Positions 27,611 to 39,022 of a stretch of 64,000 nucleotides of DNA are shown piece by piece; position 1 is the stretch's first letter, and each line of letters opens with the position of its first letter. The DNA is taken from the NCBI GenBank assembly GCA_947500385.1, contig CANMSA010000004.1, positions 186,001 through 250,000 of the forward strand, written 5' to 3'. Source of the DNA: an uncultured Flavobacteriaceae bacterium (GTDB taxonomy: Bacteria > Bacteroidota > Bacteroidia > Flavobacteriales > Flavobacteriaceae). Under the pieces are notes generated by a model. The model was not told the origin of the DNA. It made no database searches and worked only from the letters and a program-made list of their open reading frames with translations. Made by a program: the position numbers and the translations under genes.

Positions 27611-28870
27611 ATGAAAAAATCACATATTTTCATTTCCTTTTTACCATTCCTATTTGTCGCTCATTTACTAAGTGCACAATACGATCCAGATTTTGAACTT
27701 AGACTCAACTGTGGTAATTCGGGTGCAACGGGTCAATTTGCCGCTGATCAATACTTTGATGGTGAAAGACAGTTTACCAGTTCGTATGTTACCCTAGCAG
27801 AGCCCTTTAAGAGCATCCGGTTCACAAAAACCCCCACGACCGGGCAACACACGATGAATTATAGCATACCGGTAGAAAATGGGAGCTACACCGTTACGCT
27901 TCACTTTCTAGAGATTTATTTTGGTGTTAGCGGCAATGGTGGTGTTGGCAGTCGCGTATTTGATGTAAGCCTTGAGGGACAGCTCGTGGAAAATGACTTG
28001 GACATTTTAGATAGAGTTGGTCAAAACGTGGTTTATAGTCCACAGTATACCGCCAATGTAACAGACGGACAACTTACTATTTTCTTCTCAGCATCAGCAG
28101 GAGACCCGATTATTTCCGCCATTGAGGTAGAGGGAATAAATAGTTCTGATACGGAGCCTCCTAGCACTGTACCCTTTGGTTCCTTTCAATCGGGGAATAT
28201 AACAGATACTACGGTTGATTTAAGTTGGGGAGCGGCAAGCGATAATGTCGGTGTTGTCGGGTACAGGATATACCAAGGATATCCTTCTTTTACAGACCTG
28301 GTTCAAACCTTGGGAAATGTCACCAGCACTCAAATAGCCAATTTGACTCCTTCTACGGGTTATCAATTTGCTGTTGCCGCTTTTGATGCTGCAAATCTTG
28401 AAGGTCCTAAAAGTGGTCTAGGCGTCGTTACGCTTGACTCCCCCGCCAACGGTACGGGCGGGTATTGGTCGAAGACATCCTCGACTGTTTACTATAATAG
28501 TGGTAGTGTAGGTATTGGGACGACAACCCCTGGCACATACAAGTTAGCTGTAAACGGCCATATAAGGGCCAAAGAAATTGTTGTTGAACAGGCCAACTGG
28601 CCAGATTATGTATTTTCTGATGAACATACGCTGCCTTCCTTGGAAGAAGTAGAAAAGCACATTGAGGAAAATGGGCATCTTATCAATATTCCCTCGGCAG
28701 GCGAAGTTCACTTGAACGGTATTGAAGTGGGTGAAATGAACAGGTTGTTGTTGGAGAAAATAGAGGAGTTGACCCTGTATATTCTAGCACAGGATAAAAT
28801 GAACAAAACCCTAAAAACTGGGCTTTCAGAACTACAAAACGAAGTTAACCTCTTGAAACAAAAACCATAA
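27611..28870 (+). CDS. Secreted malectin/FnIII protein with tail-fibre-like C-terminus
   Basis: A 419-residue exported protein (signal MKKSHIFISFLPFLFVAHLLSAQ). Domains: malectin-like carbohydrate-binding domain (about 28-175; LRLNCGNSGATGQFAADQYFDG, YTVTLHFLEIYFGVSGNGG, GSRVFDVSLEG), one fibronectin type III domain (about 190-275; STTVDLSWGAASDNVGVVGYRIYQG type) and a shared module from about 285 to the end (GIGTTTPGTYKLAVNGHIRAKEIVVEQANWPDYVF, then a predicted coiled coil). That module is known at the ends of many Bacteroidota surface proteins and resembles phage-fibre chaperone/trimerisation tails. The next gene is a tandem partner. Confidence 0.85.
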   Translation: MKKSHIFISFLPFLFVAHLLSAQYDPDFELRLNCGNSGATGQFAADQYFDGERQFTSSYVTLAEPFKSIRFTKTPTTGQHTMNYSIPVENGSYTVTLHFLEIYFGVSGNGGVGSRVFDVSLEGQLVENDLDILDRVGQNVVYSPQYTANVTDGQLTIFFSASAGDPIISAIEVEGINSSDTEPPSTVPFGSFQSGNITDTTVDLSWGAASDNVGVVGYRIYQGYPSFTDLVQTLGNVTSTQIANLTPSTGYQFAVAAFDAANLEGPKSGLGVVTLDSPANGTGGYWSKTSSTVYYNSGSVGIGTTTPGTYKLAVNGHIRAKEIVVEQANWPDYVFSDEHTLPSLEEVEKHIEENGHLINIPSAGEVHLNGIEVGEMNRLLLEKIEELTLYILAQDKMNKTLKTGLSELQNEVNLLKQKP

Positions 28871-28953: not shown

Positions 28954-30561
28954 ATGAAAAAACTGAACCCGACTTTAGGAACGATATTCGTAAAACTAAG
29001 CATATGGCGTTCTTTGCCCCTACTAGTTCTATTCTTTGCATCGGTACAAGGAGTAGCTCAATCTGTCACGACTTTAAACCCTGTATCCGACGCTTATCTG
29101 CAACGTTCGTCTTTTAATTCTACGAGCGAAACTCGCTACAATGATGAGACCTTACGTGTAGAAAATTCAAGCAACAGAGTAAGGGATAGTTACTTGAAAT
29201 TTGATTTGTCAGGTATTAATGGAACCATTACCGCATTAGAACTGGAACTAACTGTTTACACTGATCCAGGAAGTGGTACCATCAATGTTTATAAAGGGAT
29301 TGGAACCGGTTGGAATGAGAACAACCTTTCAAATTCAAACAAGCCCACCACTCCAGGTGCTCCTTTGGGTTCTTTTCCCGGAACACATTCCAACAATGCT
29401 GTTAAGATCCTTGCTCTAAATACTACTATTTTGGACAGCAGCAATCTATTGTCCATTGTTCTGAAACATACAACGAATTCGGACGTTGCTTTCGCCTCCA
29501 TGGGGCCCGAGACCTCTAGCATTTTCGACCAAGCACCATCGTCAAAATGGCCTAAATTAAAAGTGACCTTTACACCGAATACAGGAGATACGGAAGCACC
29601 AACAGCTCCAACTAACTTATCGAACCCTTCAATAACGAATAACAAAGTAACCTTAACATGGACGGAATCTACCGATAATGTGGGCGTAGTAGGTTACAGG
29701 GTATACAACCAAGATAGTTTTTACGACAACGCGGGAAACGCAACAACATACGAGACCCCGACTTTGACCGAAGGGGCAACATACCAGTTTAGCGTCAGGG
29801 CATACGATGCGGAAAATAATGTTAGCCCGGCCAGTAGCACATTACCGGTTACTGTAACTAATTCTTCCCCTGGAGATACCGAACCTCCGACAGGGCTTTT
29901 GTTTCCAAATTCTTCCAATGTTACAAGTACCACAGTAGACCTCGACTGGACAGCCGCTACAGATAATGTTGGCGTCTCTGGCTACAAAATCTACGAAGGT
30001 GAAAATCCTTATACAACCAATTGGAATTTGCTTGCCACTATAGGGAATGCAACCAACTATCAACTAACGGGTTTATCCCCTGCAACCCAGTACTACCTGC
30101 GATTTACTGCCTTTGACGCTGCCGGAAACGAATCTAGCGGATCGGTAATTACCATCACTACATTATCAAATGTCGGAGATACGGGAGGGTACTGGAGCCT
30201 GGCTCAAAACAACACTGACCTCTACTACAATAATGGAAATATAGGTATTGGAACAGCTACTCCCGGCACCTATAAGTTGGCGGTAAACGGACACATACGA
30301 GCTAAGGAGATTGTAGTGGAACAGGCCAACTGGCCCGACTATGTGTTTACAGATGAATACCCCTTGCCCTCTCTAACGGAGGTGGAGGAGCACATTAAAA
30401 AAAACGGGCACTTAATGAATATCCCCTCTGCAAGTCAAGTGCATTCCGATGGTATGGAAGTGGGGGAAATGAACAAGTTGCTATTGGAAAAAATAGAGGA
30501 ACTGACACTCTATATCATAGAAATGAAGAAGGAAATCAATGAATTGAAAAATGATAATTAG
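28954..30561 (+). CDS. Secreted DNRLRE/FnIII protein with tail-fibre-like C-terminus
   Basis: A 535-residue exported protein; the ATG at 28954 opens a signal ending near VQGVAQS. Domains: DNRLRE/CBM96-like domain (about 40-205; VSDAYLQRSSFNSTSETRYNDETLRVEN, DSYLKFDLSGI), two fibronectin type III domains (about 215-305 and 310-405) and the same C-terminal module as the upstream gene (GIGTATPGTYKLAVNGHIRAKEIVVEQANWPDYVF, EVGEMNKLLLEKIEELTLYIIEMKKEI). The nucleotide similarity of the module to the upstream gene points to duplication. The RHS gene begins 52 bases downstream. It may be a trimeric surface fibre or adhesin (inference). Confidence 0.85.
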   Translation: MKKLNPTLGTIFVKLSIWRSLPLLVLFFASVQGVAQSVTTLNPVSDAYLQRSSFNSTSETRYNDETLRVENSSNRVRDSYLKFDLSGINGTITALELELTVYTDPGSGTINVYKGIGTGWNENNLSNSNKPTTPGAPLGSFPGTHSNNAVKILALNTTILDSSNLLSIVLKHTTNSDVAFASMGPETSSIFDQAPSSKWPKLKVTFTPNTGDTEAPTAPTNLSNPSITNNKVTLTWTESTDNVGVVGYRVYNQDSFYDNAGNATTYETPTLTEGATYQFSVRAYDAENNVSPASSTLPVTVTNSSPGDTEPPTGLLFPNSSNVTSTTVDLDWTAATDNVGVSGYKIYEGENPYTTNWNLLATIGNATNYQLTGLSPATQYYLRFTAFDAAGNESSGSVITITTLSNVGDTGGYWSLAQNNTDLYYNNGNIGIGTATPGTYKLAVNGHIRAKEIVVEQANWPDYVFTDEYPLPSLTEVEEHIKKNGHLMNIPSASQVHSDGMEVGEMNKLLLEKIEELTLYIIEMKKEINELKNDN

Positions 30562-30613: not shown

Positions 30614-33600
30614 ATGAAACATTTTTTCACCACCTTCTTCTTATTGTCTTTGTTCTTTTCCCTTGCACAATCAGACAACGAGAACTATGTCAAAACCATA
30701 GAACCGAAAGCGGGGTATAATATTAGTGAACTAGACAATTTATTGGGTAATAGTAGCACTCCAAATACCCTTTCCCTGAATTTGCCCGTAACCTCCGGAG
30801 ATTATATTGCCACCGAAAGAATAAACTTGACGGATGGGTTTCACGCCACCGGAACAGTTCGCGCAAGAATTGTTGATTTCAATGAAAATCTATTGGAATA
30901 CATTTCCTATTACGATGGCCTTGGAAGGCCTATTCAAAACATTGCTAGGGGGCAAAGTGCAAATGGAAATGATATCATACGTTTAACCGACTATGATCAA
31001 TTTGGCAGAGAATCATCAACCTATTTACCATTCTCGGTTCAACAGAATTCTGGTAATGCTATTGATAATCCAGTAAATGAGCAAGTTAACTATTACAGAG
31101 CCGCTTACGATGATCCATACGGATTGAGCTTTAATAAATATGATGAATCACCCTTAAACAGAGTTGTTGAATCGTCATCCCCTGGAACTGATTTTCGTAT
31201 TCTTTCTGGGAATGTTAATGGTCATACCGTTAAGTACGAATATGGAACCAACCTTTCTACCACAGAAGTCATAAAGTTTTCAATAGATGACTCTGGTTCG
31301 TCGCCATTAATTATAAAAGGCAGCTACGATACAAAAGAACTCCTAAAAAATACAATAAAAAATGAAAATTGGCAGCTCGGCGACGGATCTTTAAATACCG
31401 TAGAAACGTATTCAGACAAGAGTGATCGGACAATTGCCCAAATTACATATGAAGAAGGCCCTAACGGAACTTCTGTAAAGAGAATTACTCAAAACATATA
31501 TGACATTTATGGTAGACTACGTTATGTGCTGCCCCCAAAATCTTTAGTAAACGTAACAACCACCCCAGGCAATTTTCAAATTAACGAAAACTTGGTATTT
31601 CAATATCGATATGATCAATACAACAGGAAAATTGCACAAAGAGTTCCAGGCAGAGGTTGGGAATACATGGTATACGATAGACTGGACAGGCCAGTCTTAA
31701 CCCAGGATGCTAATCTTAAAGCGGACAACAAATGGCTCTTTACAAAGTATGATGTTTTTGGCAGACCCATATATTCAGGTATTTATGTGTCTTCTCAGAC
31801 ACCAGAACAACTACAGCAAAGCATAGATAGCTACATTCAGGGCAATACCAGTAATTTGGCAAATGCAGAAAAGAGAACAACCACTTCTATCGAAGTTGGT
31901 GGTTTACTAATGAGTTATAGCAACAACGCCTTTCCCATTGATAACATCTCGGAAGTGTTGACATTACAATACTATGATGATTATTTATTCACTGATAATG
32001 ACAAGCCTACCGGATTATCCTCAAATGTGCAAGGGCAGACCGTCACGAACAGAACTAAAGGTCTTCTAACGGCCAGTTTTACTAAAACGCTTGGAGAATC
32101 TACTTGGAACAAGACTTATAGCTATTACGATAGTAAAGGCAGAGCCATTCGAATTTACAGTAAAAACCATCAAGGCGGGCATACCATAAGTTCTAGTAAA
32201 TTAGATTTTAGAGGAAAAACAATACAATCGTATACCAGGCATAAAAAGAATTCTTCCGCAACCGTTTTAAACATTACCAACCGTTTCACCTTTGACCATG
32301 CAGAGCGCGTATTAGGCCAGTACCAAAAAATAAATGCGCAACCGGAGGAACGACTTGCCGAAAACACCTACGATGAGCTAGGAATGCTCATTGGTAAACA
32401 GGTAGGTGGTACCACAGGGTCGATAGCGTTGCAAGAGCATGCATATAAATACAATATTAGAGGACAAATTTCATCCCTGAATGATGTTAGTAATCTCGGA
32501 AACAAGCTTTTTGCCTATAAGTTGAGGTACAATGAAACTTCAGAAGGTGGTTCACCAGTAGCATCAAGATATGATGGTAGTATCTCCCAGGCTATTTGGC
32601 GTTCTTCATACGATAACACTAAAAAGAGTTACTCCTATTCTTATGACGCCTTAAATAGACTTAAATCAAGCTCTTATCAATATAATGAAAATCTGAATGG
32701 GAATTCAGGATTGAACTATAATACCCAAATCACATATGACCCGAACGGTAATATAGTATCACTAAATAGAAACGACGGCAATGGCGTCATGGATCAATTG
32801 AGCTATGATTATGGTGGGGCCAATGGAAACCAACTATTTGCAGTTTCGGATACTTATGCTTCAGTAGGCTTTATCGATGGTAATACTAGCGGTAATGATT
32901 ATGCTTATGATGGCAATGGGAACCTGATAAAAGACTTAAATAAGGGGATTTCTTCTATTACCTATAATCATTTAGATCTTGTAAAAAATGTATCACTCGC
33001 AAGCAATAGAAGTTTATCTTTTATGTACTCTGCTACCGGCGAAAAACTTCAAAAAAAATACAAAAATGGCAATACCATAGTAGCTGATACTGAGTATCTA
33101 AATGGCTTCCAGTACGTGAACGGTACACTACAATTTTTCCCTACGACCCAAGGCTACGTCTATAAATCTGGCAATACCTATAAATATATGTATATCTATA
33201 GGGATCATTTAGGGAACAATAGGGTAAGTTATTCAGATGTAGATGAGAATGGAAACATTGCCGTATCGGAGTTAAATTCAAATACCAACTACTATCCTTT
33301 TGGCGCTAGTCATTCCGAACAATTTACGGGCAGTCTGGCCGCCAACTATAACTATGTTTTTCAAGGAAAAGAATATCAGGCGGAAAATGGCCTTAATTGG
33401 CATGACTTCGGATCTCGAAACTACGATGCCTATTTAGGACGTTGGATGGTGCCCGACCCTCAAAACCAGTTTGGAAGCCCTTATTTGGCGATGGGTAACA
33501 ATCCTATTTCATTTACAGATCCCGATGGTGAGTACACTGGATGGGATGATGCCGCCGCATTTCTTATAGGAGGTATTATAAATGTTGTTGCGAATTACGA

Positions 33601-34444
33601 TAATATAGATGACTGGGGAGATGGGCTGTCCTATTTTGGCATTGGGGGTGTATCGGGAGTAGCTACCTTATATGGTGGACCCGTGGCAGGTGGGGCTATT
33701 CTTGCCGGCGGCAATAGTTTTTACACCCAATATGACAAAAACAACGGAAATGTAGAAGTTGATCAGCTTTTATTCGATACTACTATCGGCGCGGCGACGG
33801 CCGGTATTGGTTCTAAATTATCTCCTTTCATTGCCACACATACTAGCAAGCTGTTCGGGAGCAGCAGTTCATTGTTTTCTCAATATGCCGTAGATGCCGT
33901 TTCCAATGTTAGTTCCGGTGTTATTATCGAGACTACCGTAGGAGTTGCTATGGGAGAGAGTTTAAATGATTCTTTTTCAAATAGTCTCAATAATATTCCA
34001 CAGTCATTGGTCATTAGTGGAATTAGTACCACTGGCGCATACTACAAAGGCAAGCACCAAGCACGTCAAGAAGCAAAGAAACAAAAACTATTGGCCCAGG
34101 AAAACAATGAGGTGGTAGAACTCAATATTCCTGCCATAGAGCTTACAACATCCTCCGAGTCATTAAAACCAAGCAGGAACTACACCATATTTTTAGAGGA
34201 TGGAACCGTATATAAATTTGGCGTCTCCGGGGCAGATCTCAAAAGATACAACCAATCTTTAATTGAAGCTGGGCCTAATGCATTTGGAAAATATTCAGAT
34301 ATTAAACCAAAATTCAAAGCACACATATCCGAAAAATATATGCGAAGTTTGCACTATAACACTACTGGGGACTACTTTTTGCCAGGAATGAAAATTCCAT
34401 TTCCTGTTGATTTTGACACTAGAATGCCCATAAAATTAAATTGA
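30614..34444 (+). CDS. RHS-repeat polymorphic toxin-like protein (DUF6443 N-terminus)
   Basis: A 1276-residue secreted RHS protein. The ATG at 30614 gives the signal MKHFFTTFFLLSLFFSLAQ. The N-terminal domain (YYDGLGRPIQNIARGQSANGNDI...TDYDQFGRESSTYLPF) is DUF6443-like; residues about 330-950 hold YD-type RHS repeats; the RHS core (YYPFGASHSEQF, GLNWHDFGSRNYDAYLGRWMVPDPQNQF, NNPISFTDPDG) ends at Gly972. The following ~300 residues are unrelated to the repeats: a glycine-rich hydrophobic stretch (973-1180), then a compact 88-residue tip (1189-1276) with a YTI...YKFG pattern, Arg1211, Glu1240 and Asn1249 reminiscent of GIY-YIG/Tox-URI nucleases. The tip assignment is tentative. The next gene overlaps the stop by one base. 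Confidence 0.88.
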   Translation: MKHFFTTFFLLSLFFSLAQSDNENYVKTIEPKAGYNISELDNLLGNSSTPNTLSLNLPVTSGDYIATERINLTDGFHATGTVRARIVDFNENLLEYISYYDGLGRPIQNIARGQSANGNDIIRLTDYDQFGRESSTYLPFSVQQNSGNAIDNPVNEQVNYYRAAYDDPYGLSFNKYDESPLNRVVESSSPGTDFRILSGNVNGHTVKYEYGTNLSTTEVIKFSIDDSGSSPLIIKGSYDTKELLKNTIKNENWQLGDGSLNTVETYSDKSDRTIAQITYEEGPNGTSVKRITQNIYDIYGRLRYVLPPKSLVNVTTTPGNFQINENLVFQYRYDQYNRKIAQRVPGRGWEYMVYDRLDRPVLTQDANLKADNKWLFTKYDVFGRPIYSGIYVSSQTPEQLQQSIDSYIQGNTSNLANAEKRTTTSIEVGGLLMSYSNNAFPIDNISEVLTLQYYDDYLFTDNDKPTGLSSNVQGQTVTNRTKGLLTASFTKTLGESTWNKTYSYYDSKGRAIRIYSKNHQGGHTISSSKLDFRGKTIQSYTRHKKNSSATVLNITNRFTFDHAERVLGQYQKINAQPEERLAENTYDELGMLIGKQVGGTTGSIALQEHAYKYNIRGQISSLNDVSNLGNKLFAYKLRYNETSEGGSPVASRYDGSISQAIWRSSYDNTKKSYSYSYDALNRLKSSSYQYNENLNGNSGLNYNTQITYDPNGNIVSLNRNDGNGVMDQLSYDYGGANGNQLFAVSDTYASVGFIDGNTSGNDYAYDGNGNLIKDLNKGISSITYNHLDLVKNVSLASNRSLSFMYSATGEKLQKKYKNGNTIVADTEYLNGFQYVNGTLQFFPTTQGYVYKSGNTYKYMYIYRDHLGNNRVSYSDVDENGNIAVSELNSNTNYYPFGASHSEQFTGSLAANYNYVFQGKEYQAENGLNWHDFGSRNYDAYLGRWMVPDPQNQFGSPYLAMGNNPISFTDPDGEYTGWDDAAAFLIGGIINVVANYDNIDDWGDGLSYFGIGGVSGVATLYGGPVAGGAILAGGNSFYTQYDKNNGNVEVDQLLFDTTIGAATAGIGSKLSPFIATHTSKLFGSSSSLFSQYAVDAVSNVSSGVIIETTVGVAMGESLNDSFSNSLNNIPQSLVISGISTTGAYYKGKHQARQEAKKQKLLAQENNEVVELNIPAIELTTSSESLKPSRNYTIFLEDGTVYKFGVSGADLKRYNQSLIEAGPNAFGKYSDIKPKFKAHISEKYMRSLHYNTTGDYFLPGMKIPFPVDFDTRMPIKLN

Positions 34445-35136
34445 TGAAAATTGGAAGAACACTTTTTTGGTTTAAAGATGGAGAGGCAACACTTAGGGAC
34501 CTAACATCAGATTTTTTTGGGCTCTCGACCTTGCTTAACAGCTTGTTGAATGAGTTTTATAAAGGTAAAAAAATTAAGTTTTTCAATGTTACTTTCTCCA
34601 ATTCTAGGGCATACAAACTGTTTCCTAACCGCTTAAAAAATGAAGCTTACTATGCAAACGGCCATTTATCTTATTACGCGGTATTTGACTCGGATGTTTT
34701 TATAGCAATGAATACTTTAGATCAAAAAAGGTTTTTATGGGATGAAGCTTATAAAGGCTTACAAGCTTCGGCCACCTTGATGAAAAATCCTGAATTATCA
34801 GATGCTTGTGAAATTGCGTATCATAAAGGCATAAAAATGAATCTTAACACAGACCATACAGTTCTTGAGGAAGCTATTGAGCTGTTTGGCCAAAAATTAA
34901 AAGCCGCAGTGATTATTCAGTTCAAAGAAGATAAAATGTACTCAAAGTTTTTGTTGGAAGATGACAAAAAAATACTCTACGAACAGGATATTGATACCGC
35001 TCAAAAAAACATGGAGGTTTTTCTTGAAATTTATAAGAAAATGGAGCAGGAAAATGATACCATCATCATAAAAGGTGCAAAACACATTGAGTATCTACCA
35101 TTGACCATAAAGCTTGATAAAAGCATATTGAATTAA
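34444..35136 (+). CDS. Candidate immunity protein for the RHS toxin
   Basis: A 230-residue cytosolic protein (no signal, no membrane segment) starting in a TGATG overlap with the RHS gene. It is rich in Lys and Glu and predicted mixed alpha/beta (KIGRTLFWFKDGEATLRDLTSDFFGL, AYKGLQASATLMKNPELSDACEIAYHKG, EEAIELFGQKLKAAVIIQF). I recognise no family. Immediate overlap downstream of an RHS tip, with no secretion signal, is the standard position of an immunity gene in polymorphic toxin systems. The role is inferred from context alone. Confidence 0.72.
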   Translation: MKIGRTLFWFKDGEATLRDLTSDFFGLSTLLNSLLNEFYKGKKIKFFNVTFSNSRAYKLFPNRLKNEAYYANGHLSYYAVFDSDVFIAMNTLDQKRFLWDEAYKGLQASATLMKNPELSDACEIAYHKGIKMNLNTDHTVLEEAIELFGQKLKAAVIIQFKEDKMYSKFLLEDDKKILYEQDIDTAQKNMEVFLEIYKKMEQENDTIIIKGAKHIEYLPLTIKLDKSILN

Positions 35137-35212: not shown

Positions 35213-38200
35213 ATGAAATTAAAAATTACTACCGTAGTATTTCTGGTATTTACGTTCATCAACGGACTAGCTCAGGAGTCTGATATTTTAACCCCAAAAG
35301 CTTCGCCTTTTCAAGTAGGTAACAATATCGAGGGTGTAGTAAAGAATTCTGTGAACGAGGTAACGGGCAAGGTCACTTTCTCAATCCCTTTGGCTACAAT
35401 TGCATCACGATCGATTACGTTCCCGGTAAACCTCACATATGATGGAGCTTCAGCTCTTGATATAGCACAGCAATTAAACGAATACAGCCCTACAGGGACG
35501 GTCGGGGTTGGTTTTAATACCGGTGTGCCCAGAATTATTGTTGACAACAAAGGAACGGCCGCAAGGGATGATGATGAGTTCTTTTTGAAGGATGACACCA
35601 ACAATACAAGGCTAATTTGCACCAAAAAAACAGTCGTAAACTTTCCAAACTCCGGGGATAGCTATCAGGAATTTGAAACTGAAAAATATGTACCTTATAA
35701 AATCAAATATCGTATTAAGACTATCGATCAAGTAAACAGTAACATCATTACAACGGTACAAGACTACTGGGAGATTATCAATGACAGCGGTGTTACCTAC
35801 ACTTATGGAAATACCGATAATACCAGAGAAAATGTCATCGCTTGGGATAATTGGATAGGTTCGTCAAAAAATACTAGCGGAGCCTCGCTAAGTACCGTTA
35901 TCTGGAATCTTTCCAAAATAGAAGATCAATGGGGAAATAGTTTAGACTTCACCTATGAAAAAACAGAACAAGGTCATAATTCATCGGCAATTAAACATAC
36001 AGAAGCTTCCTATATTAAAGAAATCACCTCATCTTCTGGAGGTAAAATAATTTACAATTACGGCAATAAAACAATACTGGAATATCACGAACCTCATACC
36101 GAAATCCAAGAACCGGATGCATATCAAGAGCGGTATGAAAGAAAATTTTTAGAGACTTTGGATATCTACGACCGCGCAGAACAATTAATCAATACCTATG
36201 ATTTTACCTACGACTACAAGTTAAAGGCACTAGGAGAACGCAAAATGTATTTGGAGAGTCTTACATTTAAGGATGCAAACGGTGTAGCAATGCCTGCGCA
36301 CGAATTTGACTATTATACGTCCGGTGACTTTGTAGGTTGTATGGAAAAAGTAACCTACCCGACTGGAGGTTCTGTTACCTACAACTATGAAAATAAGCTC
36401 TTATATACCAACACCGCAAATAGATATCCCGCGGGCTCAATAATTACCGCTGGCTATACCTTTTATGCAGCGTATGCCAGAGATAATTATGTTCTTAGGT
36501 TATATAGATCAACCAATTATGTTTCTGGAAACAAATACCGCTTTAAAATGGTTAGGCATTGGTGGGATGGTAGTCTTTGGCAAACCAGTGAATTCGTGCT
36601 CCCCCCCTTAATAAGCGATGAATTCATTCGAGGAAAAGTAATGGATCGTTTTCTTTCCGTTTTTGAAGAAGATTACTATGGATTTCTTTGGTTCAATAGA
36701 GATACCGATGAAGGTGATTTGTATTTGTTTCATCTGGAAAACGATGGTCGTACTTGGAAAGAATCACATATTGCCGATATTACCATAGAATCCTATAATG
36801 ATCAAAACAAGCAAGAAGATCCTGTTTTAATGTCTTCTAAAGACTTTGTTATGATAGGAACGAACCGCTCGGGAAGAGTCTACACATATACTTGGAATGG
36901 TTCTTCATGGAATTCAGGAGAAATTCAGCAAGGTCAAGGCCAATTTTATTATGGTGTGGCAAGTAATTACATCTTAGCCCTAGATGAAGATGGTGGTCCC
37001 GATATGGTAACCAATATCAGCTATCCCGACAATTACTATATTCATTATCTAGATGCCGAAAAAATATGGAGAACCAAGTCTTGGTCTGCATTTGCGAATA
37101 CCCAAATTAATCCAATTAAAGATGTAAGCACCTTCTTCGCCGACAATTCGATGGCTGCTTTTGTAGCAGAAAATAATCCTGAATACATTTTAAGATGGGA
37201 TAAAGATTATAATCTTATATCCGTGGATGATGAATTAGGCGCGTATCCTGATTCGAACCCAATTTATCCTTCCTTAAGTTCAATGTTCACCATTCAGGTC
37301 AATTGGTTCAATAGCTATCCCCAAAAATCAATCAGATTCAATGGTTCTAGTTGGAGCCCTATTGATTTAAATCCGAACAGTTTTAATAGTTACAGTACAA
37401 CTGCTTTTGGGGAAGACTTTATTTTAATGTATGACCGCTCCTATTCAAATCGAAAAAAAGTGTCTTACTATTTTTACGATCCAAACAACAATAATTGGAA
37501 TTCAGGGATTTTCAACGATACTTTTGATTCAGATAATTATTGGGCAGCTGTGTGCTACAATAGGGATTTTATTATTGCAGGAAACAAAATCATTAAACTA
37601 AAAAATGACGGGACGAAATTCGGGCCCGAAATCACCTTGCCTTTGTACAATAATTTCAGCTATTCCAACACGCTCAACTACAGTTTCGTTGAACTGGCAA
37701 ACGATGTGAATGGCAATGCTTCCGGCGGCAAGTCCTTTTCCAATAGCCTGTTTGTATATACCGACAAGAAAGACGGTTATATAAAGACCATTGATCTTGG
37801 TGATAGGAAACATATAGATTCCAACTATAAGTTTGGAGGTTATAATCCATTTATGAGTTTTAAAAGCATGTTTTTAAAGAAGGATATTCAGGGCGGAGTT
37901 TTAACAGATTTATATCGTATTGTGGACGACCAAGTAAACAATGATGTTTACGACGTAGTCGTTTCCGAGATAGAAATTGATAATGGTAAGGGTGAAATAA
38001 GAAAAGTAAGTTACACCTATAATAATCCCAATTCATTACCCAATGACGTGTCAACTTTTTACGGAGAAGTTATCGTAGAGAATAAGGGATTTGGAAATTT
38101 TAGCAATGGCAAAATAAAAAGGTACTTTCATACAGGGGAAGAGGATTTGCGTTTAGCAGGATTATTAAAGAAGACAATAATTGAAGATAAAAATGGTAAT

Positions 38201-39022
38201 CTAAAAAGTGTTGATGAAACGATATGGGATAAATACCTTAAGAATTATTTCAATTCGACTTCATTGAAAGTGGGTCTTGGGTATTTCATATTTGTAGATA
38301 AAAAAATCGAGACCTTAACGTTAAATGGCGAAGAAGTCAAAAAGGAAACAGATTTTAGTTATGATATCTATGGAATGCTGACCAGTGTAAGTAAAACAAA
38401 CAGTAAAGGAGAACTTGAAACTTCTCAAACCCGCTACGCATTTCAACAATATAGTTTTGTGAAAAACAAAAATATGTTCAGTTTTCCTTACGAAACAAAA
38501 TCTGTAATTAATGGAAAAGCGGTAGCAATTGAACGTTCCTTGTGGAAACAACAAGGAGGAAGGGTATATGTAGATAAAAATAGTTCAGGTATTGAGTCTA
38601 ACAGTCTTAGAGTAAACAACGAAACAACAAGGATAGATCCTTACGGCAATATTCAGGAAAGCAACAATGGTTTGGGCGTTTTTAGAACAGTAATCTATGC
38701 TAACGCAAATCTATATCCCGTAGCGATAATTCAAAATGCTGAGTATTCAGATGTCATTAATGAATTAGATGTATCTTATAATAACTTACAAAACTTAAAC
38801 AATACTTCTTTAGAAGTTGAGCTATCAAAATTATATGATCGTTTACCAAATTCCTTTATAAATCTAACTTTCTATGATGAACAAGGAAGAATTGTAAGAA
38901 CTTTAGATGAACGTAAAGAAGCAACAAACTATGTCTATGATTCATTTAATCGTCATACATATACCACAGATTCATATGATAAGGTAATTCAGAAAAATGA
39001 GTACAACTTTTCAGGTAACTAG
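35213..39022 (+). CDS. Large SpvB/TcB-like RHS-repeat protein without toxin tip
   Basis: A 1269-residue secreted protein (signal MKLKITTVVFLVFTFINGLAQ). Residues about 30-120 (NEVTGKVTFSIPLATIASRSITFPVNLTYDGAS, GTVGVGFNTGVPRI) match the SpvB-like start of RHS/Tc proteins. About 130-400 holds RHS-like strands (SLDFTYEKTEQG, GGSVTYNYENK); about 410-880 is a W/Y/D-rich repeat region (SLWQTSEFVLPPL, YTWNGSSWNSGEIQQG, FNGSSWSPIDLN) suggesting a propeller; about 930-1269 returns to YD repeats (FYDEQGRIVRTLDERKEATNYVYDSFNRH) and ends YNFSGN. It lacks the RHS core and any tip, so it could be a structural partner of the upstream toxin. A hairpin terminator follows about 200 bases downstream. Confidence 0.8.
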   Translation: MKLKITTVVFLVFTFINGLAQESDILTPKASPFQVGNNIEGVVKNSVNEVTGKVTFSIPLATIASRSITFPVNLTYDGASALDIAQQLNEYSPTGTVGVGFNTGVPRIIVDNKGTAARDDDEFFLKDDTNNTRLICTKKTVVNFPNSGDSYQEFETEKYVPYKIKYRIKTIDQVNSNIITTVQDYWEIINDSGVTYTYGNTDNTRENVIAWDNWIGSSKNTSGASLSTVIWNLSKIEDQWGNSLDFTYEKTEQGHNSSAIKHTEASYIKEITSSSGGKIIYNYGNKTILEYHEPHTEIQEPDAYQERYERKFLETLDIYDRAEQLINTYDFTYDYKLKALGERKMYLESLTFKDANGVAMPAHEFDYYTSGDFVGCMEKVTYPTGGSVTYNYENKLLYTNTANRYPAGSIITAGYTFYAAYARDNYVLRLYRSTNYVSGNKYRFKMVRHWWDGSLWQTSEFVLPPLISDEFIRGKVMDRFLSVFEEDYYGFLWFNRDTDEGDLYLFHLENDGRTWKESHIADITIESYNDQNKQEDPVLMSSKDFVMIGTNRSGRVYTYTWNGSSWNSGEIQQGQGQFYYGVASNYILALDEDGGPDMVTNISYPDNYYIHYLDAEKIWRTKSWSAFANTQINPIKDVSTFFADNSMAAFVAENNPEYILRWDKDYNLISVDDELGAYPDSNPIYPSLSSMFTIQVNWFNSYPQKSIRFNGSSWSPIDLNPNSFNSYSTTAFGEDFILMYDRSYSNRKKVSYYFYDPNNNNWNSGIFNDTFDSDNYWAAVCYNRDFIIAGNKIIKLKNDGTKFGPEITLPLYNNFSYSNTLNYSFVELANDVNGNASGGKSFSNSLFVYTDKKDGYIKTIDLGDRKHIDSNYKFGGYNPFMSFKSMFLKKDIQGGVLTDLYRIVDDQVNNDVYDVVVSEIEIDNGKGEIRKVSYTYNNPNSLPNDVSTFYGEVIVENKGFGNFSNGKIKRYFHTGEEDLRLAGLLKKTIIEDKNGNLKSVDETIWDKYLKNYFNSTSLKVGLGYFIFVDKKIETLTLNGEEVKKETDFSYDIYGMLTSVSKTNSKGELETSQTRYAFQQYSFVKNKNMFSFPYETKSVINGKAVAIERSLWKQQGGRVYVDKNSSGIESNSLRVNNETTRIDPYGNIQESNNGLGVFRTVIYANANLYPVAIIQNAEYSDVINELDVSYNNLQNLNNTSLEVELSKLYDRLPNSFINLTFYDEQGRIVRTLDERKEATNYVYDSFNRHTYTTDSYDKVIQKNEYNFSGN

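Follow-up and report, generated by a model that had tools for sequence, protein, structure and literature searches.

Organisation of the RHS gene and its downstream partner

The stretch analysed here (64,000 nucleotides, 64 kb, hereafter the window) belongs to the genome of an uncultured Flavobacteriaceae bacterium (6.03 Mb, 123 contigs; hereafter the source genome). Analysis of the window showed an RHS gene with a C-terminal tip and a second gene overlapping its end, both on the plus strand, as are all features of the pair given below. The pair likely represents a polymorphic RHS toxin with a URI/GIY-YIG-like tip of the Tox-URI2 type and a coupled immunity protein of 230 amino acids that would block the tip.

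The RHS carrier (30614..34444, 1276 amino acids) was identified as an open reading frame (ORF) with matches to DUF6443 (PF20041, residues 91-205, 2.5e-30 in Pfam) and to Rhs_assc_core (TIGR03696, residues 893-972, 33290..33529, 6.2e-14 in NCBIfam). The core match terminates in DPDG at residue 972, which agrees with the boundary (Gly972) proposed in an earlier reading made from the letters alone (the sequence-only reading); a DPxG-type boundary closing the core is a mark of polymorphic RHS toxin systems. The N-terminus is signal-peptide-like (MKHFFTTFFLLSLFFSLAQ, judged by eye, no predictor being used), and the RHS protein is probably exported. The Pfam and NCBIfam scans showed no type VI secretion system (T6SS) domain and no type IX secretion system (T9SS) tail on it, and the T9SS protein SprA is encoded in the source genome (2846.9 bits). 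The core is followed by a linker (residues 973-1175, 33530..34138), which had been read as a hydrophobic stretch and proved only mildly so on the Kyte-Doolittle scale, with a maximum of 1.34 at residue 1013 and no 19-residue window in the whole RHS protein reaching 1.4. No relative of the linker was found in plasmids, nor at 0.01 in the other fetched loci.

The candidate toxin cassette occupies the last 101 residues (1176-1276, 34139..34441). An 88-residue tip starting at residue 1189 had been proposed; alignment with the relatives described below moved the start of the conserved cassette to near residue 1176 (IKLTTSS-x-SLAPSR), and the carriers diverge upstream of this point.

The toxin stop codon (TGA, 34442-34444) and the start codon of the downstream gene (ATG, 34444-34446) share one base in the sequence TGATG (34442..34446). 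The downstream gene (34444..35136) codes for the candidate immunity protein, 230 amino acids in length and probably cytosolic, in which no segment is strongly hydrophobic (Kyte-Doolittle maximum of 1.02 over 19 residues). The overlap of the sequence-only reading was borne out, and the cytosolic character is probable.

Conservation of the tip and candidate immunity gene on different carriers

A scan of the genome collection yielded three relatives of the tip among 105 pattern-fitting stretches: L023 (uncultured Flavobacteriaceae), L024 (a Flavobacteriaceae metagenome-assembled genome; L022 and L024 are one locus, labelled L022/L024) and L025 (Ferruginibacter paludis). These and the window tip form the four-tip set. 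The tip was present in 2 of 397 genomes of the family, the source genome included, in 1 of 395 genomes of the phylum, which was the source genome, and in 2 of 247 genomes of the class, namely the source genome and one weak match that was rejected. This match, L029 (E 0.0027 over half of the tip profile), lying inside a large ORF that starts as a surface-type protein by eye, was attributed to chance. No tip relatives were found in viral contigs or phages, and none in plasmids, which were queried with the L023 tip.

The window tip is 62% identical to the L023 tip, 62% to L024 and 54% to L025, and all four tips are basic (isoelectric point 9.1-10.0). A homologue of the downstream protein (229-237 amino acids) followed within 25 bp at all four loci: the one-base overlap of the window corresponds to gaps of 24 bp in L023, 2 bp in L024 and 14 bp in L025, where the homologues have 237, 233 and 229 amino acids and are 47%, 44% and 46% identical to the window protein, respectively. 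Convincing matches to the immunity protein (E 2.4e-55 or better) occurred in 2 of the 397 family genomes, both of them holders of the tip. Matches in 8 more family genomes (E 5.5e-4 to 0.009) were partial, some with stops, and were judged to be chance. The window immunity protein had no match in plasmids; phages and viral contigs were not searched for it. Since the tip and the downstream gene recur jointly in three further loci, their association is more than chance, and the view of the two genes as a toxin-immunity pair is well supported by the four co-occurring pairs on different carriers; the partner is predicted to neutralise the tip. The same tip without a neighbouring immunity gene was not seen at any of the four loci. 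In the 397 family genomes the downstream protein was likewise not widespread apart from RHS genes, except that the L022/L024 tip ORF stands without an RHS core on a short contig.

The carriers differ. The L025 carrier has 1540 amino acids and is 29% identical to the window RHS protein over 927 columns, while the L023 carrier, with more than 2100 amino acids, is RHS-like by eye (YD repeats and an NNP..DPSG end) and gave no match to the window RHS protein at 1e-4. The L024 tip lies in a 191-amino-acid ORF preceded in frame by a stop, and no RHS core was found before it on its 4.7-kb contig, which begins a few hundred bases upstream. Downstream of this core-less pair, a fragment of an RHS core was observed at L022 2705-3703, its end HNH-like as judged by eye (KHHIIPQ), a layout that suggests stacked toxin cassettes.

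Comparison of the same locus in related strains, which had been proposed as a check for tip swapping, showed the converse as well. A genome of the same genus (G018) codes for an RHS protein 39% identical to that of the window over 927 columns with a different-looking tip, whose HTH...S..D pattern we take to be JAB-like and which is adjoined by a lipoprotein-like gene (by eye). In the other two genomes of the genus searched (G247 and G396), the RHS part was without a match. The source genome contains 10 RHS cores, and the 9 others carry different-looking tips, among them L040 and L045, presumably an AHH/HNH nuclease and a deaminase-like domain, respectively, as judged by eye. Eight of these 9 cores were followed within 14 bp by a same-strand ORF of at least 70 amino acids starting with ATG, the exception being L044. 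The same tip on differing carriers, and a related RHS protein bearing another tip, show the C-terminal exchange expected of polymorphic RHS toxins.

Within the cassette, the first motif tyrosine (GIY position) is Tyr1190 (34181..34183), the KxG motif is Lys1201-Phe-Gly1203 (34214..34222), the motif arginine on the predicted first helix (32-44 in a low-confidence model) is Arg1211 (34244..34246), the candidate metal-binding glutamate on the predicted second helix is Glu1240 (34331..34333), and Asn1249 (34358..34360) follows. All of these residues, Phe1202 included, were invariant in the four tips. As 44 of the 102 alignment columns were invariant, motif invariance alone is modest evidence. The residues named in the sequence-only reading (Tyr1190, YKFG at 1200-1203, Arg1211, Glu1240 and Asn1249) were correctly positioned, with one correction: Tyr1200 is variable (H in L024, F in L025) and Lys1201 is kept, so that the site is KxG, of the Tox-URI2 type, and not YxG as YKFG implies.

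Nature of the tip and of the immunity protein

The signatures listed by Zhang et al. 2012 (PMC3482391) are "Y, YxG, R, [RK]xxE, N" for Tox-URI1 and "Y, KxG, [EQ]" for Tox-URI2. All four tips carry the Tox-URI2 signature. For profile comparison, a Tox-URI2 set of three members was assembled, P0003 from the source genome and the plasmid-borne L038 and L039, with scores of 1.1e-6, 1.9e-17 and 0.013 (below cut-off) against the Pfam model PF15653. A second set of three, the L041 group, consisted of L041 (source genome, G000:C2:281500-286700), L050 and L051; these carry a URI-like tip (DVWKYG..RY..EKIMIYG..LPPGN) for which Pfam gave no convincing match. Attempts to enlarge the sets found PF15653 in 1 of 148 genomes and PF15571, the Imm44 model, in 2 of 208, and one further Tox-URI2 query against plasmids and viral contigs gave nothing new, so the comparison profiles are shallow.

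In hhalign, the four-tip profile scored 25.9 against the Tox-URI2 set and 22.6 against the L041 group, and 0 of 200 column shuffles were as high in either case. Column shuffles are a lenient control, and real-protein controls were therefore added. In the reverse search, carried out with the window, L023 and L025 tips and leaving out L024, the window tip came first against both the Tox-URI2 and the L041 profiles, with 0 of 300 unrelated pieces as high in each. The four-tip profile was also compared with single tips, and 1 (L050), 1 (L039), 3 (L051) and 3 (P0003) of 381 real-protein controls scored as high; these controls included L029, which had been chosen for its score and topped the control list (34.4). 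When 10 tips were aligned jointly, the motif glycine and Glu1240 were the sole fully invariant positions (10/10 each), and the lysine was present in 9 of 10.

Several results weigh against a URI nuclease. Neither the Pfam Tox-URI2 model nor the GIY-YIG model matched any of the four tips, and the tip is accordingly not assigned to Pfam Tox-URI2. The hhalign probabilities were low (33% for Tox-URI2, 11% for the L041 group). The L023 and L025 tips performed less well than the window tip in the reverse search: of 300 controls, 3 and 5, respectively, scored as high against Tox-URI2, and 8 and 6 against the L041 group. Two comparison tips lay at control level against the four-tip profile: of the 381 controls, 32 scored as high as L041 itself, and 168 as high as L038, which has the best Pfam Tox-URI2 match. 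The Tox-URI2 set and the L041 group did not match each other (138 of 200 shuffles reached the score), P0003 has a glutamate at the position of Lys1201, and Asn1249 is not kept in the two other tip groups of the joint alignment. The structure model of the tip was of low confidence (predicted local distance difference test, pLDDT, 51.9) with no clear fold match, and no GIY-YIG entry appeared among the fold-search matches listed for it.

In Pfam, NCBIfam, PADLOC and PHROGs, the four libraries searched for both the tip and the downstream protein, the window tip had no match up to E 1. At E 10, three chance-level Pfam names appeared for the four tips, each in one member. Four solved structures matched by sequence (E 0.64 or worse) were discarded. 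The low-confidence model has the order strand-strand-helix-strand-helix. GIY-YIG cores have the order strand-strand-helix-strand-helix. We infer a URI fold from the motif and profile comparisons, and, given that the tip is a toxin, it quite probably acts like a Tox-URI2 nuclease. The compact GIY-YIG-like nuclease of the sequence-only reading thus gains support from motif conservation, the Tox-URI2 signature and the controlled profile comparison, and none from the Pfam scan or the structure model; a nuclease-like site is present and conserved, in a fold modelled with low confidence.

Two other explanations of the tip were weighed against this reading. The toxin-immunity pair may be real and the tip of another fold, with the spacing of Y, KxG and E arising from convergence or alignment noise. 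The missing confident structure and library match, and the comparison members at control level, are in its favour. None of the 200 shuffles, however, scored as high as the tip profile, none of the 300 unrelated pieces scored as high as the window tip, and the only columns fully invariant across ten tips were those of the motif glycine and glutamate, so that a fold outside the URI class is rather unlikely. Much less probable still is that an RHS surface protein ends here in a degenerate tip that is not toxic, next to a functionally unrelated gene. This would accord with the core-less L024 tip ORF, closed upstream by a stop, and the toxin activity of the tip is itself predicted from sequence. 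It is opposed by the conservation of both proteins together at all four loci on different carriers, and by the fact that 395 of the 397 family genomes lack a convincing match to the downstream protein.

The immunity protein showed no convincing match in the four libraries. Its weak matches were Mistic (0.0056, below cut-off), BFN_dom (0.2) and PHROGs entries (0.14 or worse). The Mistic match, seen in 3 of the 4 immunity proteins with 0.0056 as the best value, was judged to be chance; the four proteins gave five chance-level Pfam names at E 10, and two solved structures matched by sequence (E 0.14 or worse) were discarded. No Pfam family with an Imm name was found for any of the four. The structure was modelled well (pLDDT 86.1), with an alpha/beta half that extends to around residue 133 and a second half, starting at residue 135, that is mainly beta; no solved structure stood out and no clear fold match was obtained. 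An undescribed immunity family, as earlier suggested, is consistent with these results, and a distant tie to Imm44 is possible.

Such a tie would make the protein a two-domain relative with an N-terminal Imm44-like domain and a C-terminal beta meander, which is compatible with the toxin-immunity reading. The Imm44-type comparison set had four members (L041, L050, L051 and L053, of which L051 and L053 are below the Pfam cut-off). Residues 27-106 aligned colinearly with this set in hhalign (23.4, E 0.0075), and 0 of 200 shuffles were as high (top 23.0); against the Imm44-type profile, none of the 230 controls came up to the L023 and L025 immunity proteins; the structure model falls into two parts at about residue 134; and PMC3482391 gives Imm44 for both Tox-URI1 and Tox-URI2. 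Against this, the Pfam Imm44 model (PF15571) matched none of the four immunity proteins, 54 of 230 controls were as high as the window protein and 11 of 230 as high as L024 against the Imm44-type profile, and 6, 7, 16 and 55 of 259 controls were as high for single Imm44-type proteins. With real-protein controls so mixed, the Imm44 tie is a lead and not a finding, and is held tentatively, on the doubtful side.

Imm44-type proteins follow the L041-group tip in 3 of 3 loci (3.1e-7 for L041 in the source genome, 2.3e-8 and 7.8e-5 for the others, the last below cut-off). The partners listed for Tox-URI2 in PMC3482391 are Imm9, Imm12, Imm39 or Imm44. Proteins of 212-243 amino acids with no convincing Pfam match follow the Tox-URI2-type tips at L038 (1809-2540), L039 (1827-2465) and L027 (778-1449); they are of about the same size as the immunity protein of the window, and their match to the window-type immunity proteins was weak, with 3 of 200 shuffles reaching its score.

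The preferred reading, a polymorphic RHS toxin with a Tox-URI2-like tip and a cognate immunity protein, suggests the following mechanism. The RHS core would form a shell, and the last 101 or so residues (from about 1176) would be the exchangeable toxin, with Tyr1190, Lys1201-x-Gly1203, Arg1211 and Glu1240 as its site. The RHS toxin would be exported and the tip released in a competitor, where it may cut nucleic acid, probably DNA, with a metal bound by Glu1240. The 230-amino-acid protein, translationally coupled to the toxin, would remain in the cytosol of the producer, bind and block the tip, and so protect kin.

Neighbouring genes and comparison with known systems

Two genes upstream of the RHS gene (one with malectin and fn3, the other with CBM96 and fn3) share a terminal tail of about 115 amino acids that is 67% identical between them (28469-28843 and 30199-30558). 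The tail was also found upstream of 5 of 8 other sampled RHS loci of the source genome, in at least two copies each (L061, L062, L063, L065 and L066), and not upstream of L060, L064 and L067. It occurred on 8 plasmid records, of which at least CP012864.1 also matches the window RHS protein. The tail had no Pfam family in the scan, and its best PHROG (0.0023) is of unknown function. Downstream of the pair lies a YD-like protein of 1269 amino acids (35213-39022) with no RHS core match in Pfam or NCBIfam. Parts of it are similar (23-31% identity) to sequence in the upstream regions of other RHS genes of the source genome, in 5 of the 8 sampled, and it is a possible partner of the RHS protein. That the pair is one warhead of an undescribed Bacteroidota delivery locus, made up of the tail genes, a large partner of YD type and a DUF6443 RHS shell that is exported by Sec and takes up swappable cassettes, with passage through the outer membrane by the T9SS or a new route, is an unlikely, speculative extension.

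The source genome holds, among its ten cores, two further URI-like RHS tips with different immunity proteins, and so offers a compact natural set for how one nuclease type gains new inhibitors. It also bears on how Bacteroidota export RHS toxins with an apparent signal peptide. A literature search covering titles and the beginnings of abstracts among the matches listed, and not supplements, gave no description of the tip-immunity pair, and a search on DUF6443 found nothing. A Salmonella Tox-URI2 candidate has been predicted by bioinformatics, according to PMC8867033 and PMC10469887.

The window tip resembles Tox-URI2 (PF15653; PMC3482391) in size, C-terminal position on an RHS protein, Y/KxG/E signature and adjacent immunity gene, and its profile similarity is above controls for most members tried. 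It differs in not being matched by the Pfam model and in having its own conserved C-terminal TG-x-Y-x-LPGMK, and its immunity protein has no Imm-family match. The L041-type tip with Imm44 (PF15571) shares with it KxG, R, EK and TG..PG in the same order, an RHS carrier and an adjacent immunity gene, whereas the two tips are 30% identical over 71 hhalign columns and the L041 partner is a 140-amino-acid Imm44 instead of a 230-amino-acid protein.

RhsA of Pseudomonas protegens, a T6SS effector described as a closed shell holding its cleaved toxin (PMC8765631), is likewise an RHS protein with a C-terminal toxin; unlike it, the window protein begins with a signal-peptide-like segment and matched no T6SS domain in Pfam or NCBIfam. 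The TANFOR toxins of Bacteroidetes, for which T9SS export is hypothesised in PMC7073777, are similar in that they occur in Bacteroidota, mostly have a signal peptide, are followed directly by an immunity gene and include GIY-YIG among the named tips, and the difference is the RHS/DUF6443 carrier of the window. Compared with these systems, the pair is a new, rare representative of the known class of polymorphic RHS toxins, a toxin subfamily beyond the reach of Pfam models whose immunity family is absent from the four libraries searched.

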